Below, in pieces: positions 47,898 to 53,390 of a stretch of 64,000 nt of DNA (within the stretch, counting starts at the first letter, position 1; each line of letters starts with the position of its first letter). The position numbers and the translations under genes are program-made. The stretch covers positions 62,001-126,000 of the forward strand of contig NZ_JAIFXZ010000008.1 of the NCBI RefSeq assembly GCF_021033825.1. The letters run 5' to 3'. The stretch comes from Dietzia aurantiaca (GTDB lineage Bacteria; Actinomycetota; Actinomycetes; Mycobacteriales; Mycobacteriaceae). The notes beneath the pieces were generated by a model. The model did not search any database. It was not told the origin of the DNA and saw only the letters and a list, made by a program, of their open reading frames with translations.

Positions 47898-47956
47898 CGC
47901 CTTTCGTGTCGTGGTCTTTGACGGTTATTTCCGCGCGACTTCGTCTCCCTGCACGG

Positions 47957-47986
47957 TCAATGATACGGGTAGACAAATGATAAAGT
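47957..47986 (+). promoter_or_regulatory. AT-rich regulatory region upstream of sodA
   Basis: Two AATGATA direct repeats (47959-47965, 47976-47982) are 17 bp apart. TCAATG and TAAAGT (47981-47986) with an 18-bp spacer could be the promoter. The local AT content is far above the window average. Candidate binding site for a metal or redox regulator, unproven. Confidence 0.4.
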
Positions 47987-48052
47987 TCGGGTGGCCGAAA
48001 TCCGGCTGGGGTAGTCCGTTTGCGCCCCTGTCTCTCTGTGAAAGGTTCCGCA

Positions 48053-48688
48053 GTGTCCTATCTCCTTCCCGATTTGACGTACGACTATGGAGCGCTTGCC
48101 CCCGCCATCACGGGCGAGATCATGGAGCTCCACCACAGCAAGCATCACGCCGCGTACGTGACGGGCGCGAACAACGCCATCGACGCGTTGGCCGAGGCGC
48201 GCGACCGCCGCGACACCGCGTCATTGCCGGGGCTCGAGCGGGCGCTGGCTTTCCACCTGTCCGGACACGGACTCCACTCGCTGTTCTGGCAGAACCTCTC
48301 GCCCGAGGGGGGTGGCCGGCCGGAAGGCGAGCTGGCCGCCGCCATCGACGAGTTCTTCGGAGATTTCGATGGCCTTCAGAGTGAACTCAGTGGTGCCACC
48401 AGCACCATTCAGGGCTCAGGGTGGGGCGCGCTGTCCTGGGATCCGGTCGGATCCCGTCTGGTGGTCCACCAAGTGCATGACCATCATGCCAATGCCGCGC
48501 TGTTGAGTAGCCCAATTCTGGTCTTCGATGCCTGGGAGCACGCTTTCTACCTGCAGTACCGCAATGTCAAGGCGGATTACGTGGACAGGCTGTGGGATCT
48601 GGTCGACTGGTCGGACGTTGCGAAGCGGTTCGACGTGGCGAGAACAACGACGGTCTCGTTGAACCTGCCGTCCGAGGGTTCACGATAG
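48053..48688 (+). CDS. sodA: superoxide dismutase (Mn/Fe family)
   Basis: A 211-aa SOD converting superoxide to peroxide and oxygen. Metal ligands are His27 (ELHHSKHHAAYV), His75 (GHGLHSLFWQNLSP), Asp159 and His163 (VFDAWEHAFYLQYRN). No signal peptide is visible. GTG 48053 starts SYLLPDLTYDYGAL, the normal N-terminus. The Mn or Fe preference cannot be read from sequence alone; the adjoining Mn importer and NrdF favour Mn. The stop overlaps the next gene by one base, and the three genes sodA-orf-nrdF form one coupled operon. Confidence 0.95.
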   Translation: MSYLLPDLTYDYGALAPAITGEIMELHHSKHHAAYVTGANNAIDALAEARDRRDTASLPGLERALAFHLSGHGLHSLFWQNLSPEGGGRPEGELAAAIDEFFGDFDGLQSELSGATSTIQGSGWGALSWDPVGSRLVVHQVHDHHANAALLSSPILVFDAWEHAFYLQYRNVKADYVDRLWDLVDWSDVAKRFDVARTTTVSLNLPSEGSR

Positions 48689-48987
48689 TGGGTGTCTCCA
48701 ATAACTCACGGGAGAGCCTCTGGCGTGAATCGATTGAATTATTCCGATCGGCGTATCGCGGAGACCACCTCGCCGGACGAGTCGTTCTCGATACCGTGTC
48801 TGACACACGTCGTCTGACTGAGGGACTATTGCAGCTTCTCCAAGTGCACCTCATTGATGTCGATGAGAGGTCGATGACGCGGTTCCTCTCGATCGCCGAA
48901 TCCACCGGCCCGCCACCGCAGTACGGGTCCCGGCCGCTACCGACGTTCCGAGCGCTGCCGTCCCACCCGGGCCAGGAGGCGTCATGA
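48688..48987 (+). CDS. uncharacterised 99-aa protein between sodA and nrdF
   Basis: A 99-aa protein from GTG 48688, coupled to sodA (TAGTG) and to nrdF (ATGA). The first 75 residues are probably helical: [17 protein letters not shown], then [20 protein letters not shown]. The tail is Pro-rich. No membrane segment, Cys or obvious metal motif. I do not recognise a family. Base composition is less GC-rich than the neighbours. Being sandwiched between two metalloenzymes suggests a role in their assembly, metallation or regulation; this is inference from position. Confidence 0.65.
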
Positions 48988-51644: not shown

Positions 51645-52438
51645 GTGGACACCTCGTGCGTCAGATCGCGGTGGCTCGTCGAAGTGGGTTCGGGGGCAGG
51701 TGCGTGCGGATGCCGGGCACCCAGCAGTGTGGCGAGCATCTCGGGTGTGGTCGTCTCGGCGACGGAGCCGTGCGCGACTAGGCGCCCGTCCAGTAGGGCG
51801 ACCGAGTCCGCCAACCTGTCGACAGTGTCGAGGTGGTGGGTGGACACCAGCGTGGTCCGGCCCTGCGCCGCCAGCTCGCGCAGAACGTCTACGTACACGT
51901 CTTCGCTGCCGGCGTCCATGCCGTTAAACGGCTCGTCGAGTAAGAGCAGGTCTGCCTCCTGGGCGAGGCAGCGAGCGAGCAGGATTCGGCGACGTTGCCC
52001 ACCGGACAGAGCATTGATCCGACGTCCCGAGAGGTCCGAGAGGTCGACGCGGTCGAGCGCCGACTCGACCGCGTCGCGATCGGATCGGGAGGCTCTCCGC
52101 CAGGCGCCTGTGAAGGGCCGGCGCCCCTGCATGACCACGTCGCGGGCGGTGACCGGGAAACCCTCGTCGATACCGTCGGCCTGTCCGACCGTCGCGACCT
52201 TCCCAGAACTCAGCGCGGCCTTGACCGATCCACCCAGTAGCCGGACTTGTCCGCGTGTAGGTCGGACCAGTCCCAGCAGTGCCAGTAGTAAGGTCGACTT
52301 GCCCGACCCGTTGGGCCCCAGCAAGACGGTCACCGATCCACGGGGCACCCGGATCGACACGTCCGATAGTGCGCGGACCTGTCCCCGGTCGACTGTGAGA
52401 TCAGAGACGTCGACGGCGAGTTCGGTCGTGGTACTCAT
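51641..52438 (-). CDS. mntA: manganese-type ABC transporter ATP-binding protein
   Basis: A 265-aa ATPase. Walker A is LLGPNGSGKSTLLLALLGL (about 39-57), the signature is NALSGGQRRRILLARCLAQE, Walker B is LLLLDEPFNGMD and the H-loop STHHLD. The C-terminal tail (about 235-265) is Pro/Ser/Thr/His-rich and could sense metal, which is speculative. It overlaps the binding-protein gene and mntB by 4 bp each. Confidence 0.94.
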   Translation of the reverse strand: MSTTTELAVDVSDLTVDRGQVRALSDVSIRVPRGSVTVLLGPNGSGKSTLLLALLGLVRPTRGQVRLLGGSVKAALSSGKVATVGQADGIDEGFPVTARDVVMQGRRPFTGAWRRASRSDRDAVESALDRVDLSDLSGRRINALSGGQRRRILLARCLAQEADLLLLDEPFNGMDAGSEDVYVDVLRELAAQGRTTLVSTHHLDTVDRLADSVALLDGRLVAHGSVAETTTPEMLATLLGARHPHAPAPEPTSTSHRDLTHEVST

Positions 52439-53355
52439 GAGCCGGTCAGTCCCTTCGTGATGAGGTCGATGTCGTGCTCGATCAGGGCGATGTAGCTGGG
52501 GACCTCTCCGTCGGGTTCGGAGAGTGAGTCGACGTAGAGCGTTCCCCCCATCTCCGCGCCGGTGGCACGCGCGACCTGACGCATCGCGGTGTCGGAGACG
52601 GTCGATTCGCAGAAGACCGCCGGGATCTGCTGATCACGAACAGCGTCGATCAAGCTGGTGACCTGCTGTGGCGTGCCCTGTCCTTCGGTGTTCACCGCCC
52701 ACAAGTAGTGCTCGTCGAGCCCGACATCCCGCGCGAGGTATGAGAATGCGCCCTCACAGGTCACGAGAGCACGGTGGTCCGGCGGCAGTGACTCCACCGA
52801 TCGTGCGGCTCGCTCTTGTACTGCATCGAGCTCTGCTTCGTACTCGGCCGCACGGTGCCGGAATTCTGCCGCACCGTCGGGATCGAGCTCGCTCAGTGCA
52901 GCGGTGATGTTCCGGACGTAGGTCTTGCCCTCCCTGGGAGATATCCAGGCGTGAGGGTTGGGCCTGCCCTCGTACTCGCCGGAGACGATCGGGATCGGCG
53001 CCACACCTTCGGCGGCTACCGCGTGCTCGGCGCCGGACTGGAGAAACCGCGTGAGCCAGTCGTCAACGCCCAGGCCGTTGGAGATCAATAGGTCGGCGCC
53101 CGCCACCCGCTTGAGGTCACCGGTCGTGGGCTCGTATTGATGGATATCTGCGCCCACCTGAGTGATCGACGCGACCCGCACCCTGTCGCCCCCGATGCGT
53201 TCGGTCATGTCGGCGAGGATCGTGAACGTGGTCGCCACGAGAGGACGGTCGTCCTCGGAAGGCTCGGAACCAGAGTTGGCGCACGCGGACAGGAACAACG
53301 GCAGCGACAGGAGGGCCGCGAGAGTTCGACGATGGGTGGGGCGAGCTTTCGTCAT
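52435..53355 (-). CDS. mntC: manganese-type ABC transporter solute-binding lipoprotein
   Basis: A 306-aa cluster A-I binding protein. The signal peptide ends in lipobox LFLSAC (Cys25). The four metal ligands fall at His72 (GADIHQYEP), His135 (NPHAWISP), Glu201 (TCEGAFSYL) and Asp276 (LYVDSLS). The His2-Glu-Asp set is that of Mn/Fe binders of the PsaA/MntC group; Zn binders usually have three His and a His-rich loop, absent here. ATG 53355 stands 6 nt after a TAATAT hexamer, so translation is probably leaderless. First gene of the four-gene mnt operon. Confidence 0.94.
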   Translation of the reverse strand: MTKARPTHRRTLAALLSLPLFLSACANSGSEPSEDDRPLVATTFTILADMTERIGGDRVRVASITQVGADIHQYEPTTGDLKRVAGADLLISNGLGVDDWLTRFLQSGAEHAVAAEGVAPIPIVSGEYEGRPNPHAWISPREGKTYVRNITAALSELDPDGAAEFRHRAAEYEAELDAVQERAARSVESLPPDHRALVTCEGAFSYLARDVGLDEHYLWAVNTEGQGTPQQVTSLIDAVRDQQIPAVFCESTVSDTAMRQVARATGAEMGGTLYVDSLSEPDGEVPSYIALIEHDIDLITKGLTGS

Positions 53356-53361
53356 GCCGAA

Positions 53362-53390
53362 ATATTAACTGGTGATTGGTCGGTCTCCAA
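53362..53390 (-). promoter_or_regulatory. promoter of the mnt operon within the trmL 3' end
   Basis: Read on the minus strand: TTGGAG, exactly 17 bp, TAATAT, then 6 nt to ATG 53355. The -10 includes the trmL stop codon. This is the best-matching promoter in the window. Confidence 0.75.

Follow-up and report, generated by a model that had tools for sequence, protein, structure and literature searches.

A 64,000-nucleotide stretch of the Dietzia aurantiaca genome (RefSeq assembly GCF_021033825.1, contig NZ_JAIFXZ010000008.1, positions 62,001 to 126,000; in the following "the window"; host genome 3.77 Mb in 37 contigs) holds three joined genes for an accessory superoxide dismutase (SOD), a small protein (Orf99) and a second class Ib ribonucleotide reductase (RNR) subunit (NrdF), which face a manganese-type importer operon with its MntR-like regulator. 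We read sod-orf99-nrdF, with a probability of about 0.6, as an acquired backup for manganese shortage that would be controlled by MntR and that sits beside an old manganese-importer locus. This best reading, a manganese-sparing backup, is the reverse of the idea put forward in an earlier note on the same DNA, which had seen a manganese-using kit. The layout described there, two convergent operons with a 42-bp palindrome between them, is borne out by the coordinates, the Pfam domains and a palindrome scan:

47700-47849, minus strand: remnant of an older mntR (decayed 3' part, FeoA-domain end), detected by tblastn with a same-genus MntR
47986-47999, no strand: candidate MntR operator of the sod operon, TTCGGGTGGCCGAA, an exact TTCGG-N4-CCGAA
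48053-48688, plus strand: sod, accessory Fe/Mn superoxide dismutase (PF00081 and PF02777, Sod_Fe_N/C)
48688-48987, plus strand: orf99, small protein of an unnamed family with the pattern W-x-E-x-I ... GPPP, no Pfam or NCBIfam match
48984-49955, plus strand: accessory class Ib nrdF (Ribonuc_red_sm; TIGR04171)
49977-50018, no strand: perfect 42-bp palindrome between the convergent operons, putative two-way terminator (palindrome scan)
50035-50778, minus strand: mntR-like regulator of the DtxR family with a FeoA domain (PF02742, PF01325, PF04023)
50775-51644, minus strand: mntB, metal ABC permease (PF00950, ABC-3)
51641-52438, minus strand: mntA, metal ABC ATPase (PF00005, ABC_tran)
52435-53355, minus strand: mntC, metal-binding lipoprotein (PF01297, ZnuA)
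53348-53361, no strand: candidate MntR operator over the mntC start codon, TTCGG-N4-CCGAA with one mismatch in the window

The importer and the cassette appear to have different histories at this place. Fifteen same-genus loci around trmL were fetched and scanned with a protein panel, and mntC adjoins trmL in 14 of them (L125 is without mntC). One stretch, L129, stops inside mntR, which leaves 13 loci reaching beyond it; past mntR the panel found no sod, orf99 or nrdF in any of these 13, and the next panel match is orf47227, glcD or dnaE2, as to the left of the window's cassette (in L124 about 2.8 kb without a panel match lie in between). Orf99 was likewise not found in other same-genus genomes in samples of 151 genomes and of 401 family genomes, nor was an accessory-type SOD in other same-genus genomes among the matches listed for the 401. 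Upstream of sod, the mntR relic is 60.6% identical over 33 amino acids to the MntR of L128 (E 6e-7, tblastn) and scores 35.8 bits, against maxima of 25.4 in 200 shuffles (two-base blocks) and 23.5 in 150 other pieces of the window. From its position it follows that the three genes were inserted at the end of mntR, and since the importer stands here across the genus while the cassette is absent there, the kit is a composite of an old importer locus and an acquired cassette. The statement that the segment interrupts the usual gene order therefore applies to sod-orf99-nrdF, and not to the mnt genes. In a tree of the mnt genes the window groups with L115, L118, L123 and L124 (100/100), in a tree of the flanks with L115 and L128 (92/90), the flank data being partial and L115 16% filled; this difference, together with the relic being nearest to L128, hints at a possible allele replacement of the mnt genes.

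Related cassettes were found in other genera. Among the 401 family genomes, in which the window's is counted, 11 others carry, among the matches listed, an SOD that shares 63-78% identity with that of the window, the next SODs among these matches reaching at most 59%. The accessory sod is followed by nrdF in eight of the 11 (L073-L079 and L081), L080 has a nrdF fragment, and L072 and L082 have no nrdF. The pair is also carried by plasmid pLW3 of Rhodococcus sp. LW-XY12, and a scan of named genomes with 80 SOD loci gave four pairs, in two Prescottella defluvii, in Rhodococcus gordoniae DSM 44689 and in Mycolicibacter heraklionensis Davo. Three of these four are already counted above, and the distinct carriers besides the window number 10. 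The sod-nrdF adjacency, for which a survey across actinobacteria had been suggested, thus recurs in Prescottella, Rhodococcus and Mycolicibacter. In a tree of 29 NrdFs (that of L140 left out) the ten sod-linked ones, the window's included, lie on one side of a branch (99/99) and the 19 others on the other; the window's NrdF has a long branch and an uncertain place within the linked group.

Carriers in several genera, one of them a plasmid, and a low guanine-plus-cytosine (GC) content support the acquisition of sod-orf99-nrdF by transfer. As had been stated, the segment is less GC-rich than the window mean of 0.705, the three cassette genes having 0.61-0.63 and the mnt genes 0.65-0.67. The earlier claim of a transferable kit accordingly stands for the cassette, which also has no match in the sampled genomes of the genus, but not with the mnt operon as a part of it. 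Beside the other sod-nrdF carriers the protein panel, applied to stretches of 6-18 kb and not to the rest of those genomes, found no orf99, mntR, importer binding protein or permease; within these stretches, the co-occurrence of the two operons, whose absence the earlier note had named as refuting its idea, was thus not seen. Within the window the three genes are joined by stop/start codon overlaps (48053-49955, plus strand), the GTG start codon of orf99 overlapping the stop codon of sod, and the 42-bp palindrome behind them is probably the terminator of both operons. It ranks second in length among the perfect palindromes of the window; the longest, of 60 bp (55215-55274), lies between a DUF3017 gene and the next open reading frame (ORF). 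As a separate observation, L080 has at 8896-9096 only a nrdF fragment behind an intact accessory sod, which is a decayed cassette.

What ties the cassette to the importer is a palindrome common to both operons. TTCGG-N4-CCGAA stands exact upstream of the accessory sods of the window, L009, L073, L074 and L077-L081 and with one mismatch upstream of those of L072, L075, L076 and L140. All 11 nrdF-linked accessory sods have it (eight exact, three with one mismatch), and so do 13 of 15 overall; these genes are relatives of one another, not all of them independent, and the sequences of L009 and L079 (pLW3, R. gordoniae) are identical. Over the mntC start codon the site is found in all 14 genus loci, exact in 12 and with one mismatch in L115 and L122. 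In random 210-bp stretches drawn from 113 loci an exact copy turns up in 0.27% and a copy with at most one mismatch in 1.6%, and the site was absent, at up to one mismatch, within 200 bp upstream of the other 76 SOD loci of the named-genome scan. The own genome has seven exact sites, compared with two for the reversed pattern; that of sod is upstream of the gene, five fall within predicted ORFs, and the seventh (L134) was not placed. It is the tie to mntC that leads us to read TTCGG-N4-CCGAA as the likely MntR operator. The search for a common site at both promoters, which the earlier note had proposed, was thus positive, and the regulatory link to the manganese importer suggested there was upheld. 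Since the putative operator is that of a manganese repressor, the cassette should come on at low manganese.

The assignment of importer and regulator draws on domains and models. The importer operon has binding protein, permease and ATPase together (PF01297, PF00950, PF00005); the best NCBIfam models are a Mn/Fe ABC ATPase for the ATPase and EfaA and SloC for the binding protein, in each case with scores under their cut-offs. The regulator has DtxR-type DNA-binding and dimerisation domains (PF01325, PF02742), and its best NCBIfam model is an MntR one. The palindrome might instead belong to another repressor of the DtxR family, IdeR or DtxR, in which case the cassette would answer iron rather than manganese. 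Its half-site presumably resembles the DtxR/IdeR box with C for A. Moreover, high iron in vitro also allows the MntR of Corynebacterium diphtheriae to bind (PMC13001254). We nevertheless consider an iron repressor unlikely: the site lies over mntC in every one of the genus loci and before the orf-mntCAB operons of L034-L036 described below, and five of the other six exact sites of the own genome are inside ORFs, no iron-uptake promoter being marked among those that were placed.

Further occurrences of the site were seen around the pair in other genomes. One-mismatch sites lie near it, at similar positions, in L073 (6928), L074 (6393), L075 (11163), L076 (11150), L077 (11442) and L078 (11489); in L077, where alone the gene was checked, a GDT1 cation antiporter gene (PF01169) is near the pair with such a site upstream. 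On L218, a plasmid of Tsukamurella tyrosinosolvens, a single gene separates an SOD gene from a TMEM165/GDT1 gene. Exact sites stand before the housekeeping sod in L073 (4438) and L074 (3905), where this gene may also answer MntR.

The accessory NrdF belongs to the class Ib (R2b) family (TIGR04171, 434.1 bits, cut-off 355), and its six metal ligands and radical tyrosine are intact (DEHYEEH) at the positions that we take to be those of E. coli NrdF. It is not a class Ie R2e protein, as glutamate is kept at all three sites that are replaced there (QSK or VPK). Across the 29 aligned NrdFs all ligands are kept except in the QSK one, so that the others, the window's included, could use iron or manganese. 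A second nrdF is found elsewhere in the host genome behind genes read as nrdH, nrdI and nrdE (putative names); the cassette is without these three genes, so that its NrdF would draw on the housekeeping NrdH, NrdI and NrdE. The C-terminal tail of NrdF binds R1, and here the window's protein stands apart, being the only one of 29 to end in DWST (DEDWST) and to have no C-terminal phenylalanine, while the other 28 end in DWDF or DWNF. This loss, the long branch in the tree and the fragment in L080 would also suit a transferred cassette that is decaying as a neutral passenger and is left without a useful NrdF, a reading that we regard as quite unlikely given that metal ligands, radical tyrosine, SOD residues, codon overlaps and the TTCGG site are all intact.

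The accessory SOD carries His144 at the water position and a valine two residues before the aspartate ligand. The same pair occurs at these two metal-preference positions in 15 of 15 accessory SODs and in none of 25 housekeeping SODs, all of which have glutamine with methionine (24) or leucine (1). A second sod of this Gln/Met type is found elsewhere in the host genome, its product being 92% identical to the housekeeping SOD of 'Dietzia sp. E1' (L190). By the rule for SodFM3, an HXXXHH motif plus a C-terminal His or Gln (PMC10172142), the window's SOD is of that type, with HHSKHH and His144. The residue pair is described as a strong indicator of SOD metal preference (PMC10172142), and His with Val points to the use of iron by the accessory enzyme. 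Methionine is not covered in the available part of that source, and the housekeeping assignment therefore rests on glutamine and on the contrast between the two groups. It is quite unlikely that Mn-SOD, Mn-NrdF and manganese import form a kit replacing iron enzymes when iron is scarce, even though the NrdF has class Ib ligands that could take manganese and a manganese-type importer adjoins, since the accessory SODs have His and Val where the housekeeping ones have Gln and Met or Leu, the candidate operator is common to cassette and importer, and the fetched stretches of other carriers showed neither mntR nor an importer binding protein or permease beside the cassette. From the earlier interpretation, transfer and the link to the importer are retained, and the idea that the enzymes are kept on manganese at iron scarcity finds no support, in view of the 15 of 15 His and Val pairs and of a putative operator that is a manganese repressor's.

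A manganese-sparing backup would work as follows. With manganese plentiful, manganese-loaded MntR would sit on TTCGG-N4-CCGAA at the sod promoter and at the mntC start and keep both operons shut. When manganese falls, both would open; mntCAB would import what manganese remains, and the cassette would give an iron-capable SOD together with an additional NrdF able to make the radical. The cell would then depend less on the scarce metal for its superoxide defence and its dNTP synthesis.

The place of Orf99 in such a scheme is suggested by the company that its relatives keep. No curated family was found for it in Pfam (E 1) or NCBIfam (E 0.1), nor a fold, nor a description among the papers listed by literature searches. 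A single-protein search of 151 genomes gave three relatives (E 5e-8 to 5e-4, for one genome), values that make the link to the window's protein modest; a profile of four members then found the family in 15 of the 401 family genomes, those four counted, that is in 14 besides the window, and seven representatives are 23-33% identical to the window's protein. In seven genomes (L025-L028, L030-L032) the relative ends an operon of mntR-like gene, nrdI, nrdE and nrdF, the NrdF being of the QSK type, and in L033 it lies between nrdI and an mntR-like gene, with an adjacent NrdF whose second and third sites, the two that were read, are S and K. In the close kin L034-L036 it starts an mntCAB operon facing mntR, behind a TTCGG site that is exact in two and has one mismatch in L036; two more relatives lie directly behind such a site (L037 exact, L029 with one mismatch), and that of L038 has neither manganese or RNR neighbours nor the site. 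The family is thus tied to manganese or RNR genes or to the TTCGG site in 14 of 15 cases, several of them near copies. Upstream of the QSK nrdI in L027, L028, L030 and L032 stand repeated palindromes of another kind, ACTACG-N6-CGTAGT, unlike the site of the window.

Other searches with orf99 gave little. Tblastn against plasmids returned no match, and a scan of genome contigs, a method that finds close relatives only, returned 236 pattern matches of which none was confirmed. A class-wide profile of eight rows found the window only among 394 genomes, with at most 13 candidates scored per genome, a sample that also missed known family members and so says little about absence. Against PDB sequences the best profile hit had an E of 0.18, and the AlphaFold model of the protein alone (mean pLDDT 48.8, four helices) was too poor for a fold search. 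A match to DivI1A (E 3e-4 in one of eight members) was set aside as probably a look-alike stretch, GxDPxEVDRFL. E. coli MntS is shorter than Orf99 and apparently of different sequence. MntS is a small protein made at low manganese that helps manganese to reach enzymes (PMC4361602), and the analogy to Orf99 is one of regulatory logic only. Judging from its neighbourhoods, Orf99 is probably a small protein of the MntR regulon that helps in the metal loading, maturation or exchange of NrdF. A bolder proposal, which we put forward tentatively and which may well prove wrong, is that orf99 founds an undescribed family of such small proteins acting on R2 subunits at low manganese, by metal exchange, maturation or protection, and that sod-nrdF is a transferable manganese-sparing cassette of an iron-type SOD and a second RNR subunit. 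A family acting on R2 would explain why these genes travel here with a metallated NrdF, in corynebacterium-like genomes with the QSK form, elsewhere with mntCAB, or alone behind the site.

Several points weigh against a manganese-sparing backup under MntR. No TTCGG site was seen ahead of the accessory sods of L082 and L217, which are without nrdF, and the window's own mntC site carries a mismatch. The scans did not show the site in front of the QSK operons or of the L033 and L038 relatives of orf99 either, which weakens the notion that all relatives answer the same operator. The regulator does not reach the cut-off of the NCBIfam MntR equivalog (165.7 against 350 bits). To these come the long branch of the window's NrdF and its missing C-terminal phenylalanine, owing to which it may bind NrdE poorly. 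On the side of the SOD, mutating the residue pair does not always shift metal preference, and the methionine of the housekeeping enzymes falls outside the rule (PMC10172142). Finally, as C. diphtheriae MntR can also bind DNA at high iron, the signal may not be manganese alone, and sodA responds there in the opposite direction (PMC13001254).

Parts of the proposed backup have known parallels, namely a SOD for manganese starvation, an MntR-regulated second NrdF and the metal-free R2e. In C. diphtheriae, mntA-D, nrdI-nrdF2 and sodA are listed as MntR-regulated (PMC13001254), so that, as is proposed for the window, a second NrdF and a manganese importer are under MntR and sodA is listed too; there, however, nrdF2 is paired with nrdI and the table of that paper has no sod-nrdF operon, whereas the window has sod-orf99-nrdF without nrdI. 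The SodM of Staphylococcus aureus works with iron or manganese (cambialistic) and matters under manganese starvation (PMC5245786). It is, like the window's enzyme, a second and iron-capable SOD, although iron use in the window is deduced from residues only; the available part of that paper mentions no linked NrdF, which the window's SOD has, and the subfamilies differ, SodFM1 in Staphylococcaceae and SodFM3 in Mycobacteriaceae (PMC10172142). Class Ie R2e proteins, metal-free, have lost the ligand glutamates (PMC11846895), all of which the window's NrdF keeps; it is in operons of this QSK type that the seven genomes have a relative of orf99 together with an MntR-like gene, with palindromes before nrdI other than the TTCGG site. 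A literature search, which left out most subscription papers and is thus weak evidence of novelty, found no description of a sod-nrdF operon. The apparent novelty lies in the orf99 family and in sod and nrdF forming one transferable operon that has an iron-type SOD.

If the proposed backup is real, one small mobile operon would, by a single switch, move superoxide defence together with dNTP synthesis to forms that depend less on manganese. It would also raise the question of the metal with which a class Ib NrdF works when manganese is low, and would highlight an unstudied small protein that recurs with manganese import, with MntR-like genes and with both metallated and QSK NrdFs.

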